From assembly GCA_030667725.1 (NCBI GenBank), contig DAOUVH010000010.1, positions 1 through 12,980 of the forward strand: DNA of 12,980 nt, in the 5' to 3' direction. Source of the stretch: Candidatus Cloacimonadota bacterium. GTDB lineage: Bacteria; Cloacimonadota; Cloacimonadia; Cloacimonadales; TCS61. Made by a program: the position numbers and the translations under genes. This document shows positions 1,958-12,980 of the stretch, in pieces. The first letter of the stretch is position 1; each line of letters opens with the position of its first letter. The notes below the pieces were generated by a model. That model had not been told where the DNA came from, did not search any database, and saw nothing but the letters and a program-made list of their open reading frames with translations.

Positions 1958-4045
1958 TTGATAAACAAAACAATTATTTTTCCATTTCTAATTATCTTAA
2001 TAAGTTCATTTTGCTATGGTCTGAATGTTCCATACTCTGAAAAACCATTTTATTCAGTTCAAAATCAAATTAGTAATTTCCTATGCAGTATTCCACCTGA
2101 TTCATCCAACATTCCACTTGAAACAAACTGTTGGATCTGGCATGATAACGATAACTTATATTTTTCATGGGAAGCAGAAACAGATGAGAATTTCATGGTT
2201 GGAAAGTATTCTCCTAACGATGTTTCTGCCCAAGCAGATCAACTTTGTGTGCAAATAATCACTGATCACATAAATTATTATGCTTATGGATTTATTGCTT
2301 ATCCTTTAGAAAGTAGATCTGATTTTGTACGTTCTACTTCACACTCACTAGATTACGACTGGAACAGCACCTACGAATATTCATCAACAAACCTGAATTC
2401 AAAATGGATAGTCGTAATGAAAATCCCTCTTAAAGATCTGCGATTCAATGGAAAACCACCTTACAATTGGAAGATCATTCTTTCTCGTTATATGAAGAAA
2501 GATGATAAGCACTACATATCACCATTACTGACGACACAAATGGGAAAAGATTATTTTAAAATGGCAATTGATATTACGATAAATAAAGAAATTCGTAGAG
2601 ATAGAAATTTCTATTTCCGACCATTTTCAATTGTGGAATCAGATCTGATCGAGAACGATACAAAATTTAATTATGAAAGTTTTGGTCTCGATCTCTCCGT
2701 TAAACCTACCTCTTCTTCAAAACTAAAGTTCACCTATAATCCTGATTTCTCAGATGTACCAATTGATGATGAAACAAACGATTTTAATTCTAAATATGCC
2801 TCATTTTATACAGAAAATAGATATTTCTTCATTAGGGATCTTAATGCTCTGGGTGTGAGTTCAACATCATTCTATTCACGGCAGATCGTGCAACTTGATT
2901 ATGCTGTAAAATTCACTGGACGAACAGATAACCTGACATATGGTGTGCTTTCTTCCAAAGTAAAACAAGTTGCTTTAGATAACTATATTGTCGATTCAAA
3001 CGATATTTATAATATTATAGCAATTAAACCTTCATCAGAAGGCTTCAATATCCAATTTACGCTTCTTAATAGAATGAATAAAGATTATCATAATGAAGTG
3101 CTGCATCTAAAACCAAATTGGGAATTTAAAAAAGATCAATATCTCTGGTTTGACATGAACATTTCTACCAAGAATACACCTGAAAATGGTACAAGTAATG
3201 GATATTTTGGAATTGTAGGATATGATTACAAAAATGATGATTTCAATTTCACTCTAAGCGCAATACAGATGAGCAAAGATTATGCAGTTGATATGGGAAA
3301 AATCTATGAGGATGATTATTACGGTTGGAACCTTAACTCTTCTTTAATAAGGGAATTTAAAAATGATCATTTGCGGTCGATCACATCAAATATTAATGTA
3401 AGTGAAGAAATTGATAATCATACAAGTGACTTACTAGAACGCTACGCACACTTCGACCTGAACTTGAATTCCAATTATCATTTAAATTTTGAACTTGATT
3501 GTGTTTCAGTAAAAGAATTATGGTCTAAGAAATATTTTAATAAATATCAAGTAAGCTTACAGACAACCTGGACTAAACCAAAATTATTTAGTGCCTTTAT
3601 TGGAGTCAATTATGTGAATTATATAATTTATAGACTTCATGATGATTATCAGGGTCGCTATCTCCAATTGGGATTAAGGGGCATTATTTATAAATACATT
3701 TCTTACATAATAACTGCTGATAACATGGTATATTTCAATGTTCCCGATGTTGATATTATTGATGATAATTACTGGCTTGCAAATATGGATATTTCTCTAA
3801 GTTTATCTAATAATCTTGATCTTACAAGTGGTATTCGTTTCAATAATTATGAATATGCTTATACTGACTCAGATTATGAATATCGTGATTACTCACAACA
3901 TGTAGGGCTATTTTCCAATCTTCGTTGGCAATTCAAGAAACGTAGTTATATTTATTTGGGTTATAATTCTGCAAATGATGAAATAAATGAGATCAGTGAA
4001 TATAGCCATCAGCAGGCTTATTTAAAAATTTCATATTCGTTCTAA
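1958..4045 (+). CDS. DUF5916-like outer-membrane protein: CBM9-like head plus beta-barrel
   Basis: This 695-residue protein begins with a signal peptide (about residues 1-21, hydrophobic core FPFLIILISSF) and would be exported. Residues about 25-210 form a beta-rich domain like the CBM9/DOMON-type head of DUF5916 proteins (NLYFSWEAETDENFM-type strand around 66-80). Residues 261-294 match the hallmark of that family: NPDFSDV at 261-267, then an FYTENRYFF stretch at 283-291, resembling the usual 'NPDFxxV...FFPEKRxFF' pattern. The rest (about 230-695) alternates aromatic and polar residues and ends in ISYSF; a terminal Phe is typical of barrels inserted by the BAM machinery. The ligand is unknown. 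The start is TTG 1958, supported by AAGG at 1947-1950 and by the signal peptide following at once; no ATG serves as well. The gene follows the HD-GYP gene by 13 bases and probably shares its transcript. A regulatory link to c-di-GMP is only conjecture. Confidence 0.8.
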   Translation: MINKTIIFPFLIILISSFCYGLNVPYSEKPFYSVQNQISNFLCSIPPDSSNIPLETNCWIWHDNDNLYFSWEAETDENFMVGKYSPNDVSAQADQLCVQIITDHINYYAYGFIAYPLESRSDFVRSTSHSLDYDWNSTYEYSSTNLNSKWIVVMKIPLKDLRFNGKPPYNWKIILSRYMKKDDKHYISPLLTTQMGKDYFKMAIDITINKEIRRDRNFYFRPFSIVESDLIENDTKFNYESFGLDLSVKPTSSSKLKFTYNPDFSDVPIDDETNDFNSKYASFYTENRYFFIRDLNALGVSSTSFYSRQIVQLDYAVKFTGRTDNLTYGVLSSKVKQVALDNYIVDSNDIYNIIAIKPSSEGFNIQFTLLNRMNKDYHNEVLHLKPNWEFKKDQYLWFDMNISTKNTPENGTSNGYFGIVGYDYKNDDFNFTLSAIQMSKDYAVDMGKIYEDDYYGWNLNSSLIREFKNDHLRSITSNINVSEEIDNHTSDLLERYAHFDLNLNSNYHLNFELDCVSVKELWSKKYFNKYQVSLQTTWTKPKLFSAFIGVNYVNYIIYRLHDDYQGRYLQLGLRGIIYKYISYIITADNMVYFNVPDVDIIDDNYWLANMDISLSLSNNLDLTSGIRFNNYEYAYTDSDYEYRDYSQHVGLFSNLRWQFKKRSYIYLGYNSANDEINEISEYSHQQAYLKISYSF

Positions 4046-6486: not shown

Positions 6487-9400
6487 ATGATTACTATAAA
6501 AATAAATGGAAAAAAAGTAAAAACCGAAAAAGGCAACAATATCCTGGATGTTGCAAAAGAAAATGGAATTGAAATCCCTACGCTCTGTCATGATAAAGAA
6601 TTATCACCATATGGTTCATGTTGGGTCTGTGCAGTTAAAGTAAAAGACAGAAAGGGTTTCGTAACCGCTTGTGGAACCGAAGCATTAGATGGAATGGAGA
6701 TTGAAACTGATTCTCAGGGAGTGCATAAAGCTCGTAAAATGGCTTTGGAACTTTTACTTTCAGATCATTACGCAGATTGTGAAGCACCGTGTAAAACAGC
6801 CTGCCCAAATCAAGTCGATATCCAAAGTTATGTTTCATTAATAGCGAATGGGCAGCATCAGGAAGCCGTAAAAGTGATTAAAGAGACATTACCGATGCCT
6901 CTTTCTATTGGAAGAGTATGTCCTGCCTTTTGTGAAGAAGAATGTCGTAGATCTATCGTCGAAGAATCAGTTGCCATCCGTCAGCTAAAAAGGCATGCAG
7001 CTGATTTTGATATATTCAATAAAACACCTTACATTCCAAAAAAAGATGCAGACAATGGGAAAAAAGTGATTATAGTTGGTGCTGGTCCTTCCGGGCTTAC
7101 CTGTGGATATTATCTTTCCAATAAAGGCTATGATGTAACTGTATTGGAATCTGCTCCAAAGGCAGGTGGCTGGTTAAGATACGGCATCCCTGAATACAGG
7201 CTTCCAAAGAGAATTCTGGATAAAGAGATCAAACTCATGTGCAAAAACGGCATGAAGATCAAATATAAAACTGAATTGGGAAAAGATATAACTCTTTCTG
7301 AATTAAATGAACAATATGACGCAGTCTTCCTTGCGATTGGCGCACAAAATGCAGTTCCAATGAGAGTTAAGGGAAGCAATATAGATGGATGTTTTCTTGG
7401 AGTTGATTTCTTAAGAGATCTAACATTGGGAAAGAAGATCAAGCTTGAAAAGAAAGTAGCCGTTATCGGAGGTGGTAATACAGCCATCGATTGCGCTCGA
7501 ACTGCAGCAAGAATGGGTGCAAATGTCACTCTTGTCTATCGTCGAACAAGACAGGAAATGCCTGCTGAAGCTTATGAAGTAGATGCTGCGGAAGAAGAAG
7601 GAATCAAATTCCATTTCCTTACCAACCCGGTAGAAAATATTGGGAAGAAGGGTAAGCTGAAGTCAATTAAAATGGAGAAAATGAAACTCGGGGAGCCAGA
7701 TGATAGCGGCAGAAGAAGACCTGAACCTACAGGTGAATTTTTCAAAGAAGAATATGGCGCGGTAATCGCAGCAATTTCACAAAAACCAGAAATCGACTTT
7801 GTTGCTAAAAAAGAAAATCAGATAAAAGGTAAGGAACTATCATTAACAAGATGGGATACAGTTATTGCTGATGAAGAAACACAATTTACAGGACTTGGAA
7901 ACATCTTTGCTGGTGGCGATTTCCGCAGAGGTCCCGCCACTGCAATTGAAGCAATCGCGGATGGTAGAAAAGCTGCTGAAGCAATCGATAGACTTCTGAA
8001 CAACAAACCTCTGATAGGCTCGATAAAACTTTTCGATTCCAAAAAAGAAAAGAAGCTGAAAGATGTTGACCCAAAAGAATTTGAACAATATGAAGAAATT
8101 CCACGTTTTAAAATGCCGGAATTAGAACCCAGGTTGAGAGCTTCCAACTTTAAGGAAATAGAACTTGGATTTGAAGAAGACGAAGAAGCACGTGCTGAAG
8201 CTGATCGCTGTCTGGAATGCGGCTGTCAGGTTAATGAAACATGTGATCTCCGCAGGTTTGCAACTGATTATAATATTGAAGTTGATCTCTTTATGGGTGA
8301 TAAAAACAAGCATCCTATTGATGACAGTCATCCGTTTATTCGTCGTGATGCGAATAAGTGTATCAATTGCGGTCGCTGTGTTAGAATTTGTGCTGATGTT
8401 CAGGGACCTGGTGTATTGGGTTACATCTATAGAGGGTTCACAACTTATGTAGCGCCTGAATTTGGAGAAAGTCTTTCCAAAACAAACTGCGAGATCTGTG
8501 GTAAGTGTATTGAAGTATGCCCAGTTGGAGCCTTACTCCCTAAGAATTCGAATATCAAACTTAATCCTCATCTAAGTGAGAAAACAATTCAAAACTGTGG
8601 TCTTTGCGGAACAGGCTGCAATATTGAAGTAAGTGTTCAAGATAACAGAGTTACAATCGTTGAACCTGCAGATGGAGAAACTTTCAACCAGAGAGATCTT
8701 TGCTTTGACGGTAAATTCGGCTGGCAAATATTTGAAGATGAAGAGAGGATCACACATCCTTACCAAAGAAAAAATGATCAGTGGATTCCAATAAAAAACA
8801 TAGATAAAGCTGCAAAAATTATTGAAGAAAAATTACAAACTGCTGAATCCAAAATGATATATATTTCTCCAACTTCATCAATTGAAGAGACACTATTAAT
8901 ACAGCATATAGCAAAAAAGATTGGCTCAGAAATATCTTCTCTATCCATCTATGATAGCTTTGTTGATAACCTGTTTGATACCAATCTTTATACTAAAACT
9001 TATGATGATCTTGAACAAGCTGAATATATCGTTTTAGTAGGAAAAATAAGTAAGGTTTATAAAACAATTGCTCGTAGATTACAGAGGAAAGGTGCAAAAT
9101 TAATATTGATCACAAACGAGACTGGGGACTTCAATGATTTCGCTGATGAATTACATAATGATGAACCTATTGTAAAGATACTGGAAAAAATCCTGCAATA
9201 TAATATTGATCAGGTTAAAGATGAGATGGATGATTTTGATGATGAGGAACAACATGTTGAACCGTTGAAGCTTGACCTTCCAGAAAAAACGGTATTCATG
9301 TATAATCGTGACCTTATTTCGGAAGAATCAATTTGGAATATCTGGGCGATATCATCACTGGTTTGTAATTTTGAAAAGGGATCTGGCATATTTCCAACTT

Positions 9401-9918
9401 CTAAATTCAATAATTTACGTGGATTCCAGAAACTGGGGATCAATGCAGGTGAACCGAGTAATCATAATTTCGTTCTTTTCTATGGTGAATTACCATGTGA
9501 AGAGCAGAAGAAACGCATAAAAAACAGTAATTTTATTGTATCGGTCAATACTCATATCGATGATGCAGACTCTTCACATTTGCTCTTACCTAAAGCATCA
9601 TATCTTGAAATGGAATCAACTTCAATTGCAGATGATGGTAGAATTTCGAGCTTTAATAACCCAAAAAATTCAACTATCCATAATGAACTTCTTCGTATCT
9701 TCAAGAAAGCCGGATTACTTACTGCACAAGAAGCTAAAATTTCGTTCTGGAATAAAAAAGCCAAATCATTCTTAGAAGAAAAAGTGAAAGCAAGAACTCT
9801 ATCTAACCAGGAACTTATTGATTACTTATATACAATTGAGAATATGAACTTTGATGCACCTAAACAAGCTAGTGTTCAGAAGAAACGAATAACAAAACTT
9901 AAGAAAATGGCTAAGTAG
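6487..9918 (+). CDS. Large fusion subunit: NuoG-like Fe-S head + GltD/NfnB FAD/NADPH module + Fe-S clusters + degenerate molybdopterin domain
   Basis: The 1143-residue protein is a mosaic. Residues 1-78 are a [2Fe-2S] ferredoxin (Cys34, 45, 48, 62). His94, Cys98, Cys102, Cys106, then Cys145, 149 and 153 form a combined NuoG His-Cys and GltD-type two-cluster region. Residues about 190-505 are a GltD/NfnB-type flavoprotein: FAD site GAGPSG at 198-203, NADPH site GGGNTA at 328-333 with YRRTRQEMPA at 351-360, and a second FAD motif AGGDFRRGPATA at 475-486. Cys575/578/580/586, Cys625/628/631/635 and Cys668/671/674/678 are further clusters. Cys704/707/711/739 begin a molybdopterin-oxidoreductase-type domain (to about 1075) that is much shorter than in formate dehydrogenases and lacks a recognisable Mo-binding Cys/Sec. 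There is no H-cluster motif. With the NuoE/NuoF partners this suggests a ferredoxin-dependent NADH:NADP+ transhydrogenase of the Stn type. Residues 911-923 are a very acidic linker. AAAGGA at 6473-6478 supports ATG 6487. A terminator follows directly. The domains are seen; the activity is inferred. Confidence 0.85.
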   Translation: MITIKINGKKVKTEKGNNILDVAKENGIEIPTLCHDKELSPYGSCWVCAVKVKDRKGFVTACGTEALDGMEIETDSQGVHKARKMALELLLSDHYADCEAPCKTACPNQVDIQSYVSLIANGQHQEAVKVIKETLPMPLSIGRVCPAFCEEECRRSIVEESVAIRQLKRHAADFDIFNKTPYIPKKDADNGKKVIIVGAGPSGLTCGYYLSNKGYDVTVLESAPKAGGWLRYGIPEYRLPKRILDKEIKLMCKNGMKIKYKTELGKDITLSELNEQYDAVFLAIGAQNAVPMRVKGSNIDGCFLGVDFLRDLTLGKKIKLEKKVAVIGGGNTAIDCARTAARMGANVTLVYRRTRQEMPAEAYEVDAAEEEGIKFHFLTNPVENIGKKGKLKSIKMEKMKLGEPDDSGRRRPEPTGEFFKEEYGAVIAAISQKPEIDFVAKKENQIKGKELSLTRWDTVIADEETQFTGLGNIFAGGDFRRGPATAIEAIADGRKAAEAIDRLLNNKPLIGSIKLFDSKKEKKLKDVDPKEFEQYEEIPRFKMPELEPRLRASNFKEIELGFEEDEEARAEADRCLECGCQVNETCDLRRFATDYNIEVDLFMGDKNKHPIDDSHPFIRRDANKCINCGRCVRICADVQGPGVLGYIYRGFTTYVAPEFGESLSKTNCEICGKCIEVCPVGALLPKNSNIKLNPHLSEKTIQNCGLCGTGCNIEVSVQDNRVTIVEPADGETFNQRDLCFDGKFGWQIFEDEERITHPYQRKNDQWIPIKNIDKAAKIIEEKLQTAESKMIYISPTSSIEETLLIQHIAKKIGSEISSLSIYDSFVDNLFDTNLYTKTYDDLEQAEYIVLVGKISKVYKTIARRLQRKGAKLILITNETGDFNDFADELHNDEPIVKILEKILQYNIDQVKDEMDDFDDEEQHVEPLKLDLPEKTVFMYNRDLISEESIWNIWAISSLVCNFEKGSGIFPTSKFNNLRGFQKLGINAGEPSNHNFVLFYGELPCEEQKKRIKNSNFIVSVNTHIDDADSSHLLLPKASYLEMESTSIADDGRISSFNNPKNSTIHNELLRIFKKAGLLTAQEAKISFWNKKAKSFLEEKVKARTLSNQELIDYLYTIENMNFDAPKQASVQKKRITKLKKMAK

Positions 9919-9925
9919 TGAAAGC

Positions 9926-9960
9926 AAAAAAATCAGGGGTGGATAACCACCCCTATTTTT
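9926..9960 (+). terminator. Strong intrinsic terminator of the redox operon
   Basis: An 8-bp GC-rich perfect stem (AGGGGTGG at 9935-9942, CCACCCCT at 9947-9954) with an ATAA loop is followed by ATTTTT. A run of seven A's (9926-9932) lies before the stem, so it could also act on the other strand. It begins 8 bases after the stop of the large subunit and is the clearest GC-rich hairpin I see in the window. Confidence 0.92.
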
Positions 9961-10043: not shown

Positions 10044-11354
10044 ATGCGGAATTTTGTTATATTTATTATAATTATCTGCTCTGTTAGTTTTTTGATAGCA
10101 GGTACTAGAATTGATAGTTTGGAAGTATATTTGAAGACAGCCGATCAAGATGAAAAGGTTGTTATTCTAAATAAACTTTCACAAGCATATCAGGAAATAT
10201 CAGCTCGTAAAAGTATAACATATGCCCAATCGGCTCTTCAAATTTCTCAAGAATCTGGTATTAGGATAGATATTGCTACATCGCTTACAAATCTAGGTTC
10301 AGCTTATTATCATCTCGGCAATTATAATAAAGCTCTGGAGTTTCATTCTAAATCCCTTGAAATATATCAACAACTTGCAGATAAACCAGGAATGCTGATC
10401 GTTAATAATTGTATTGGTCGTGATAATGAAAAACTTGGTAATTATGATCAATCCTTAAATTTCTTTCTTATCTCTTTAAAACTAAGTAATGAAATTAATG
10501 ACCAAAATGGTATTTCGATGGGACTCAACAATTTAGGAAATCTTTATCACTCATTGAATAACTACGATAAAGCTCTTGAATATTACCAGCAAGCACTTGA
10601 TCTAGAAAAGGATAGTGGAAATAAAAAAGAAATCTCTTTAGCGCTAAATAATATTGGGATCATGTATACGAATCGTGGAGATTATTCAAAATCTCTAGAA
10701 TACTATAATCAATCTTTACAAATCGAACAAGAACTTGGTAATATAAAAGGTATTTCATCGGTACTGAATAATTTGGGTATTGTTCATCAAAAATTAAATG
10801 AATATGATAAAGCACTGACCTACTTCCAAAGATCACTGGATCTGATCCTGGAAACAGGCAATCAATATGGAATTGCTGAAACATTTATCAATATTGGTCA
10901 ATTGCAAATATTGATGAACAATATGGCTGACGCATACGCAAATATTAGCCAAGGTCTTAAATTTGCTACTGATATTGGAGCACAACAGCTAATAATGAAT
11001 GGCTATCTAGCGCTATCAGATTTCTATAAAGTAAATAAAAATAGTGATGAATCACTTCGATATTTTAGACTTCACACAAAAATTAAAGATGAAATTTTCA
11101 GTGAAGAAATGACTCAAAAAATAACAAACATGCAGTCACAGTTTGAAATGGGTGAAAGAGAGCATGACTTTGTTCAATTAGAAAAAAACAATCAAATAAT
11201 GGAGTTACAGACCGAAAAAAAGAATCTGTATTTATTATTACTTCTTGCCAGTCTATTCATGGTCACTGGTTTTTCAGTAGTTCAATATAATCGAAACAAA
11301 AACAAAAAAAACAACAATTTAATATTGCAAAATGAAATTCTTGATAGAATGTAA
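10044..11354 (+). CDS. TPR-repeat sensor with signal peptide and C-terminal membrane helix (probably the front half of a split receptor)
   Basis: The 436-residue product starts with a signal peptide or signal anchor (about 1-20). It then carries about six tetratricopeptide repeats of 40-residue period (about 80-310, each with an NxLGxxYxxLxxYxKALEYYxQAL-like pattern), a helical stretch (340-393), one membrane helix (about 394-414) and a basic/coiled segment ending NEILDRM. The TPR part would lie in the periplasm and the end in the cytoplasm. AAGGGA at 10034-10039 supports ATG 10044. The unusual point is the ending: TAA 11352-11354 is followed in the same frame by eight sense codons and then by the whole GAF-HD-GYP protein. 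TPR-TM-coiled-coil modules normally lead straight into a cytoplasmic signalling domain, so this looks like the N-terminal half of one gene broken by a nonsense codon. Whether the short form still works alone cannot be told. Confidence 0.8.
   Translation: MRNFVIFIIIICSVSFLIAGTRIDSLEVYLKTADQDEKVVILNKLSQAYQEISARKSITYAQSALQISQESGIRIDIATSLTNLGSAYYHLGNYNKALEFHSKSLEIYQQLADKPGMLIVNNCIGRDNEKLGNYDQSLNFFLISLKLSNEINDQNGISMGLNNLGNLYHSLNNYDKALEYYQQALDLEKDSGNKKEISLALNNIGIMYTNRGDYSKSLEYYNQSLQIEQELGNIKGISSVLNNLGIVHQKLNEYDKALTYFQRSLDLILETGNQYGIAETFINIGQLQILMNNMADAYANISQGLKFATDIGAQQLIMNGYLALSDFYKVNKNSDESLRYFRLHTKIKDEIFSEEMTQKITNMQSQFEMGEREHDFVQLEKNNQIMELQTEKKNLYLLLLLASLFMVTGFSVVQYNRNKNKKNNNLILQNEILDRM
11352..11354 (+). 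other. Single in-frame TAA splitting a TPR-TM-GAF-HD-GYP reading frame
   Basis: The frame beginning at 10044 is open to 12635 except for this one TAA. Around it the codons read EILDRM, stop, AEKRLIKRLRIEKIITKISS, which is the usual charged helix leading into a GAF domain. A CAA (Gln) or GAA (Glu) codon at this place would restore an 863-residue protein. Possible explanations are a recent nonsense mutation, a sequencing or assembly error, or stop readthrough; the sequence alone cannot separate them. Confidence 0.8.
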
Positions 11355-11378
11355 GCAGAAAAAAGATTAATAAAAAGA

Positions 11379-12635
11379 TTGAGAATTGAGAAGATCATCA
11401 CAAAGATATCTTCTAGATTTATTAATGTATCGGATTTTGATACAGCTGTTGATGAAACATTAAAAGAAATTGGTAGGATGTGTGAAGCAAGTCGCTCCTA
11501 CCTTTTTTTACTGGATAATGATAAAGACACATTAGATAACACTCATGAATGGTGCAAAGATGGTGTACAACCTCAAGTAAGTAATCTTCAGGATATTCCT
11601 ACCGATTCATTACCCTGGTGGATGAATAAATTAGAGAATGATGAGGTAATCCATATTGCAGATGTTTCTAAAATGCCAACTGAAGCTCATCAAGAAAAAA
11701 AAATACTGCAAGATCAGAATATCAAGTCCTTATTAGTTCTACCGTTGAGATCTGCAAACAATCTGATCGGTTTCATGGGATTTGATAATGTAACTAAAGC
11801 AGAAGAATGGAAGGAAGAAGAGCTTTCACTCTTAAAAATTTCTACTGAAATTTTAGGAGTCTATTTTGAAAAAAGAGAGATAGACAATAAATTAGAACAA
11901 GCTTATTTTGGATTAGAAAAACGAATTCATGATAGAACTAGAGAGTTGGCTGAAACAAATCACGAACTACAAGTTGAAGTTACTGAAAGGAAGAGAATTG
12001 AGATCCAACTTAATGATAGTTTCCTCAGGTTAAAAAAAGCTATTGAAGAGACCATAAATGCCTTTATCTCTGCAGTTGAAATTCGTGATCCATATACTGC
12101 TGGACATCAGCTTAGAGTCGCAAAATTAAGCTATGAAATTGCAAGTGAAATGAAATTGAATAAAATGCAACTTGATGCAATACGAATCGCTGCGATTCTT
12201 CATGATATAGGAAAAATTTATATCCCGAATGAAATTCTCTCTAAACCATCTGCACTTACAGAAACAGAATTCAGCGTGATCAAGAATCATCCTCTTGCTG
12301 GTTATGATATATTAAAAACAATAGATTTTCAAATGCCAATCGCTAAAATTGTATATCAACATCATGAGAAAATTAATGGTTCAGGTTATCCACAAGGTCT
12401 TATTGGAAATGAAATTATGTTGGAAGCAAGGATCGTTAATGTTGCTGATGTTGTTGATGCAATGATCTCCCAACGTCCTTATCGCTCTTCACATGGTATT
12501 GAGCATGCACTCGAAGAGATCACGATCAATGCTGGTATCTTGTATGATCCGGAAGTAGTGGAAATTTGTTTAGATTTATTCAATGAAAAAGGATTCCAAT
12601 TCGAAGAGATTAAAATAAGAACTGCTCCGAGATAA
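11379..12635 (+). CDS. GAF-HD-GYP protein, predicted cyclic-di-GMP phosphodiesterase (back half of a split receptor)
   Basis: Read from TTG 11379, this gives 418 residues. A GAF domain spans about 12-165 (SYLFLLD near 40-46, SLLVLPL near 117-123, LIGFMGFDN near 129-137), a coiled coil about 168-222, and a full HD-GYP domain about 223-405. Its signatures are DPYTAGHQ at 237-244, HD at 275-276 with IGK, His304, the HH pair at 328-329, GYP at 336-338 and ADVVDAM at 356-362. All metal-site residues I can check are present, so c-di-GMP hydrolysis is likely. The start is doubtful: TTG 11379 has no ribosome binding site, and the frame continues upstream through 11355 to the TAA ending the TPR gene. 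I therefore think the true product began at 10044. As it stands the domain would be made only by readthrough, reinitiation or weak internal initiation. The HD-GYP part closely resembles those at 766-1944 and 12704 onward. Confidence 0.8.
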   Translation: MRIEKIITKISSRFINVSDFDTAVDETLKEIGRMCEASRSYLFLLDNDKDTLDNTHEWCKDGVQPQVSNLQDIPTDSLPWWMNKLENDEVIHIADVSKMPTEAHQEKKILQDQNIKSLLVLPLRSANNLIGFMGFDNVTKAEEWKEEELSLLKISTEILGVYFEKREIDNKLEQAYFGLEKRIHDRTRELAETNHELQVEVTERKRIEIQLNDSFLRLKKAIEETINAFISAVEIRDPYTAGHQLRVAKLSYEIASEMKLNKMQLDAIRIAAILHDIGKIYIPNEILSKPSALTETEFSVIKNHPLAGYDILKTIDFQMPIAKIVYQHHEKINGSGYPQGLIGNEIMLEARIVNVADVVDAMISQRPYRSSHGIEHALEEITINAGILYDPEVVEICLDLFNEKGFQFEEIKIRTAPR

Positions 12636-12703: not shown

Positions 12704-12980
12704 ATGGAAAAGATCGTAAATGCTCTTTTAGCTGCAATTGAAATTTGTGATCCATATACTGCCGGACATCAAAAAAGGGTTGCAACTTTAACTTTGGCAA
12801 TCGCAAGAGAAATGGGTTTTAATCAGAAACAGTTAGATGTAATTAGAATTGCAGCGATTCTACATGATATTGGCAAGATCAATCTTCCAACCGAGATATT
12901 ATGCAAGCCCGGTAAATTGGTTCCATGTGAATATAATCTTATTAAAATTCATTCAGAAGCGGGATATCAAATATTAAAGA
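12704..12980 (+). CDS. HD-GYP domain protein (partial, 5' end)
   Basis: The first 92 residues of a third HD-GYP protein are present before the window ends. The frame starts at ATG 12704, with GGAG at 12696-12699 just before it and an in-frame TAA upstream at 12659. It opens almost directly on the HD-GYP domain: DPYTAGHQ at 16-23, the catalytic HD at 54-55 with IGK, and His83. The GYP half lies beyond the edge. No sensor domain or membrane helix precedes the catalytic domain, unlike the other two HD-GYP genes here, so it is either a soluble stand-alone enzyme or has a sensor at its C-terminus. It lies 68 bases after the GAF-HD-GYP gene and is probably a local paralogue of it (strong similarity in AIEIxDPYTAGHQxRVA and IRIAAILHDIGKI). 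Confidence 0.82.
   Translation, partial: MEKIVNALLAAIEICDPYTAGHQKRVATLTLAIAREMGFNQKQLDVIRIAAILHDIGKINLPTEILCKPGKLVPCEYNLIKIHSEAGYQILK

Follow-up and report, generated by a model that had tools for sequence, protein, structure and literature searches.

A 12,980-nucleotide stretch of DNA from a Candidatus Cloacimonadota bacterium (the window) carries a single receptor gene with TPR, membrane, GAF and HD-GYP segments, which is interrupted by one in-frame TAA. The reading we favour, with a probability of roughly 60%, is a recent nonsense substitution that would detach and probably silence the predicted phosphodiesterase, the stop being found in none of 14 related genomes. If the TAA is genuine, translation would stop as a 436-residue stub made of the periplasmic TPR part and the membrane segment, and the GAF-HD-GYP part would then be made little or not at all. 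The HD-GYP action on c-di-GMP would be lost at the receptor locus, which would leave the adjoining stand-alone HD-GYP gene and the cell's other HD-GYP proteins to act. The receptor gene is real, and what has happened to it is either a nonsense change of an ordinary kind, confined to one lineage, or an error in a single base; the only thing out of the ordinary is that a close relative, the genome G039, has a stop of its own elsewhere in the gene.

The open reading frame (ORF) list and the translation both place the TAA at codon 437, in frame between the TPR-membrane segment and the GAF-HD-GYP segment (Table 1), and the coordinates and the single in-frame TAA between the two ORFs are correct as given in the initial annotation. 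There are 436 codons upstream of the TAA and 426 downstream in the same frame, which stays open until TAA 12633–12635, giving 863 codons in total with the inner stop counted as one. Eight codons lie between the TAA and TTG 11379, from which the downstream ORF is called. Scanning the window for Rfam families and for tRNAs gave no matches.

Table 1 Features of the receptor locus, numbered from the first base of the window.
Feature	Position	Strand	Basis or remark
Ancestral single gene: likely secretion signal, TPR array, membrane helix, GAF, long helix, HD-GYP	10044..12635	+	863 codons including the inner TAA
TPR-membrane piece, 436 aa, as now terminated	10044..11354	+	ORF; AAGGG, Shine-Dalgarno-like, precedes the start
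Likely membrane helix, residues ~395–416	11226..11291	+	Read from sequence; within predicted helix 354–419
In-frame TAA, codon 437	11352..11354	+	Sense codon in every relative reaching the site
Downstream piece, same frame, 426 aa: linker helix, GAF, long helix, HD-GYP	11355..12635	+	Translation, Pfam, motif alignment
TTG called as downstream ORF start	11379..11381	+	Without Shine-Dalgarno; internal Leu codon in relatives
GAF domain	11433..11849	+	Pfam
HD-GYP domain (Pfam HD_5)	12063..12557	+	Pfam, motif alignment
Terminator-like hairpin ahead of the receptor gene	9935..9954	+	Two sites, both strands of one hairpin; shuffles expect 1.2
Stand-alone HD-GYP paralogue adjoining the receptor, cut by the window end	12704..12980	+	ORF, Pfam

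The closest genome found, Candidatus Cloacimonadota CSMAG_800 (G001; locus L001, DAOUTP010000014.1), has 96.3% nucleotide identity to the window over 8,940 bases. Its orthologous protein is 98% identical and of equal length, in the same gene order but, in contrast to the window gene, it is encoded by a single 863-residue frame without an internal stop. The rest of the window's genes lie on one G001 contig in the same order, and the counterparts of the other seven genes have zero internal stops (in this gene comparison, rows under 60% identity are shown for two genes only). A search of protein databases with the linker-GAF region as the query gave 470 matches, and 19 of the best 120 are proteins of 834–864 residues that extend from the TPR part through the HD-GYP end, carry the same domains and run through the junction as one chain. 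The nearest of the full-length database proteins among the matches listed is 91% identical in the searched region. For an alignment, the window protein was combined with 24 database proteins, 19 from this search and 5 from a second one (the best 120 of each). Of the 24, 21 extend as far as the site, and every one of these has a residue opposite the TAA (Ser in 9, Thr in 10, Ala in 1 and Arg in 1); the other three (P0122, P0123 and P0125) start beyond it and are left out of the 21.

At the genome level, the gene is present in 14 of 40 family genomes (15 rows at E <= 1e-100, up to 23 candidates being scored in each genome); a phylum set of 124 genomes, with up to 7 candidates scored in each, yielded no others. 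Codon 437 in the 15 rows is TCA (3), TCG (1), TCT (1), ACA (3), ACG (3), ACT (1), GAT (1), GAA (1) or ATT (1). The TAA at this codon is shared by 0 of the 15 relative rows and 0 of the 21 database proteins, and no internal stop occurs anywhere in the gene in 13 of the 14 genomes, the exception being G039. The G003 copy lacks the last 11 residues, and G019 has two partial rows, both at contig ends, that may be two copies rather than a split gene. The initial annotation had proposed one natural receptor of about 863 residues cut by a single TAA, and this is supported by the uninterrupted relatives: opposite the TAA, 14 of 14 genomes and 21 of 21 proteins have a sense codon, mostly for Ser or Thr. 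Its example of CAA as the ancestral codon does not fit, given that near relatives have Ser or Thr codons at 437.

An ORF list that allows TTG starts gives two ORFs, as two genuine adjacent genes would, but the relatives are single frames at codon 437. With the TPR piece alone as the query, moreover, no close stand-alone TPR-membrane homologue ending at the site was found among the best 120 matches (identity of at most 41%; 7,995 candidates of 240–763 residues scored). Because all relatives that reach the site read through it, the two-gene reading is refuted, and we give it almost no weight.

Some further possible interruptions were seen. P0123 (337 aa) and P0125 (309 aa) are metagenome proteins that begin at a Met equivalent to residue 527, and P0125 additionally lacks 28 residues of the long helix; they might be further interrupted copies and were left out of the counts. 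Stops flagged inside other HD-GYP rows were gone on re-alignment for L020 and L021. A second match in L032, the adjoining HD-GYP paralogue of G019, has a stop in the position that corresponds to residue 659, which probably falls ahead of the start of that gene.

Pfam identifies TPR families in the 436-residue piece and, in the downstream piece, a GAF domain (residues 27–165 of that piece) and an HD_5 domain (residues 237–401; 134.7 bits against a cut-off of 27.2), together with an HD match of 81.5 bits (cut-off 22). By our reading of the sequence, the N-terminus of the receptor is likely a secretion signal, and one membrane helix likely lies near residues 395–416. The HDIGK, HHE and GxGYP motifs align with the solved HD-GYP enzymes 5z7c and 4mcw, so the catalytic HD-GYP domain, a predicted c-di-GMP-type phosphodiesterase, looks intact. 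Residues H720, D721, H773, H774, G781, Y782 and P783 are invariant across the alignment of the window protein and the 24 database proteins. With PDB 4mcw, which we take to be PmGH, a GAF-HD-GYP enzyme, 186 residues of the window HD-GYP domain align, including the HD, HH and GYP motifs. However, the solved chain, at 369 residues, is too short for a TPR array like that of the window receptor, and the Glu four residues ahead of the first aligned His in 4mcw is Tyr in the window protein.

A structure of the G001 orthologue was predicted with 23 sequences (mean pLDDT 78.7, pTM 0.48). Residue 437 falls inside a predicted helix (residues 427–458) leading into the GAF domain, with block means of 41–77, that is, low to moderate confidence. 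At that confidence, the model agrees with the linker helix that had been proposed for the junction, where the membrane segment is joined to the GAF domain. The HD-GYP half of the model is poorly predicted, with several blocks under 57.

A sequencing or assembly error at the TAA, with the whole 863-residue receptor being made, is somewhat unlikely but has to be weighed seriously. The difference from the nearest relative is one base, constraint is not relaxed and the genes are otherwise open, as would be the case with one wrong letter in a normal gene. On the other hand, the window's genes contain no other lesion compared with G001, so the window sequence is not generally poor, and the separate stop in the G039 copy suggests that loss of this gene happens in the clade. 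As a prior expectation, consensus errors should be rarer than nonsense alleles.

Phase variation, one of the causes listed in the initial annotation, was rejected in its slippage form: there is no gap against G001 in 11250–11500 and no length change, the two sequences differing by a substitution. Programmed or leaky readthrough of the TAA, which would give some full-length receptor, is very unlikely. The frame and the constraint are intact past the stop and a hairpin is predicted from ~22 bases past the TAA onwards (z −2.42, with equal stability in 3 of 200 shuffles), but the stop at 437 occurs in no relative seen (0/15 rows, 0/21 proteins), which goes against a programmed event. Equally stable folding is common in the gene (a fraction of 0.254 of 280 80-base windows), and G001 and G039, which lack a stop at 437, are predicted to form this hairpin too; it was therefore rejected as a readthrough structure. 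It is not predicted in G040, G003, G004 and G038, and G002 folds partly differently. Among the causes listed at the outset, a recent nonsense mutation fits best.

The substitution pattern bears on the age of the stop. When changes are polarised with G039 as the outgroup and 5 ambiguous sites are left out, those derived beyond the stop number 19 synonymous and 5 non-synonymous on the window branch, and 18 and 5 on the G001 branch. Compared with G001, the window gene has a dN/dS of 0.062 beyond the stop and 0.070 ahead of it. Under a stricter filter, in which two outgroups have to agree, 3 synonymous and 0 non-synonymous changes are left downstream. The neutral expectation over the whole branch is ~49 non-synonymous changes per 19 synonymous (p = 3e-7, assuming a transition bias of 4), and the neutral fraction of the window branch is at most 0.11–0.22. 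If downstream selection ended with the stop, these counts suggest that the stop arose in roughly the last 11–22% of the branch that leads from the G001 split to the window. Substitution counts on the window branch gave no sign of a loosening of constraint beyond the stop, and hence the gene is not classed as an established, decaying pseudogene. Purifying selection on the downstream part implies that the stop is very young, or that it is an error, or that the downstream piece is still made or used. The selection data do not separate a recent stop, an error and continued use.

TTG 11379 pairs with a generic anti-Shine-Dalgarno sequence at −2.4 kcal/mol, in line with the initial annotation, which had seen no ribosome-binding site there; seven of the eight gene starts in the window pair at −5.2 to −9.5 kcal/mol, and the start at 128 at +1.3 kcal/mol. 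At 11379 the relatives have Leu codons throughout, TTG in 8 of the 15 rows and others in 7. A scan to 12000 lists in-frame ATG or TTG codons at 11379, 11478, 11622, 11673, 11745, 11775 and 11946, of which ATG 11775 pairs best (−5.8 kcal/mol), with a pairing that by our reading lies outside the anti-Shine-Dalgarno core.

That internal initiation or reinitiation still yields a soluble GAF-HD-GYP phosphodiesterase, freed of its membrane sensor, is unlikely. Candidate starts are available downstream of the TAA and downstream constraint is still normal, but TTG 11379 is without a Shine-Dalgarno sequence, is kept in only 8 of the 15 relatives and sits in a predicted stem, and a protein from ATG 11775 would begin within the GAF domain. 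A precedent in favour comes from Shigella flexneri, for which the available text of PMC11327459 describes dgcE, dgcQ and dgcN as carrying nonsense mutations before GGDEF while c-di-GMP is still made, the degenerate genes being expressed as multiple proteins. As in the window, these are genes for c-di-GMP enzymes with a nonsense codon ahead of a still-encoded catalytic domain (PMC11327459, same text). However, the Shigella domain is GGDEF and its product was measured, whereas the window domain is HD-GYP, as predicted from sequence. A second parallel is the HD-GYP gene VC1295 of Vibrio cholerae C6706, which, in the part of PMC4212101 available to us, has a premature stop, the gene having been amplified from another strain instead. 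VC1295 resembles the window gene in being an HD-GYP gene that is cut short in one strain, but it belongs to another organism and, in that part of PMC4212101, the stop is given only as a strain difference.

The favoured reading of a recent nonsense substitution can be compared with the G039 orthologue (L023), which is 92% identical to the window receptor and likewise broken by one in-frame TAA. Codon 437 is a sense codon in this copy; the stop lies at residue 621, past the GAF domain, and, in contrast to the window gene, the non-synonymous rate is raised. The G039 copy has 43 non-synonymous and 32 synonymous derived changes over its whole length, compared with 11 and 40 for the window, G001 and their stem together (Fisher p = 1e-4). 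This is consistent with an independent, older decay in G039 with constraint lost over the whole protein. For the NuoE/F/G-like genes, the G039 branch has 56 non-synonymous and 90 synonymous changes (p = 0.01 against the G039 receptor) and the other branches have 45 and 115 (p = 0.07 against the G039 branch). As the rate of these genes is also somewhat raised in G039, part of the G039 signal may be branch-wide or due to assembly quality. Given the different stop and the raised non-synonymous change in G039, the receptor gene seems dispensable in this clade.

Control genes in the same 40 genomes, a NuoG-like gene (36 rows) and an outer-membrane-like gene (45 rows), have 0 internal stops, though one outer-membrane-like copy (G027:C135) looks frame-shifted. 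With the window left out, stops in the receptor gene (1 of 15 rows) are not in significant excess over the control rows (0 of 81; p = 0.16). Adding the window (2 of 16, p = 0.026) would suggest a gene-specific excess, but the window owes its selection to its stop, and this biased test was discarded. A bolder reading is that the receptor is repeatedly decapitated in the clade (at 437 here and at 621 in G039), the stop at 437 acting as a one-step switch that would free a soluble, sensor-blind, constitutive phosphodiesterase from internal starts with the catalytic domain retained; we regard this as quite unlikely.

GGDEF matches were found in all six relatives searched, with 4–10 rows per genome, which makes a cyclic dinucleotide system plausible in these relatives. 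Our literature search returned nothing on HD-GYP in Cloacimonadota, nothing joining HD-GYP with tetratricopeptide, GAF domain and transmembrane, and nothing on nonsense alleles in metagenome-assembled genomes; c-di-GMP does not appear in the available text of PMC8542988, a paper on Cloacimonadota.

Eight HD-GYP rows were counted in G001, and the 13 kb of the window hold three HD-GYP genes: one at 766–1944, the receptor and the stand-alone gene at 12704. The last is a diverged tandem paralogue of the receptor's HD-GYP domain and is open in G001, G039, G040 and G002, where it encodes 198–200 residues. The gene at 766–1944 has a strong Shine-Dalgarno sequence at ATG 766 and is overlapped by 128–796, which encodes a hydrophobic 222-residue protein without a Pfam match; the counterparts of both have no stop in G001. 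At 1958–4045, a gene with a TTG start encodes a 695-residue protein without a Pfam match, which gives the impression of an outer-membrane protein and is present in 32 of the 40 family genomes. One copy of this gene (G027:C135:3514-5539) is spread over two frames that overlap, probably through a frameshift. Following the NuoE- and NuoF-like genes, 6487–9918 encodes a 1143-residue protein made of glutamate-synthase-small-subunit-like and NuoG-like modules, and this gene is present in 35 of the 40 family genomes.

At this locus, a gene caller would report a sensor stub and a free phosphodiesterase, seemingly unrelated to each other, in place of the one receptor of the relatives. Such split calls can distort the number of soluble HD-GYP enzymes counted in metagenomes. 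A real allele with a downstream part that is still made would offer a natural test of whether HD-GYP output works without its sensor, comparable to the Shigella cyclases.
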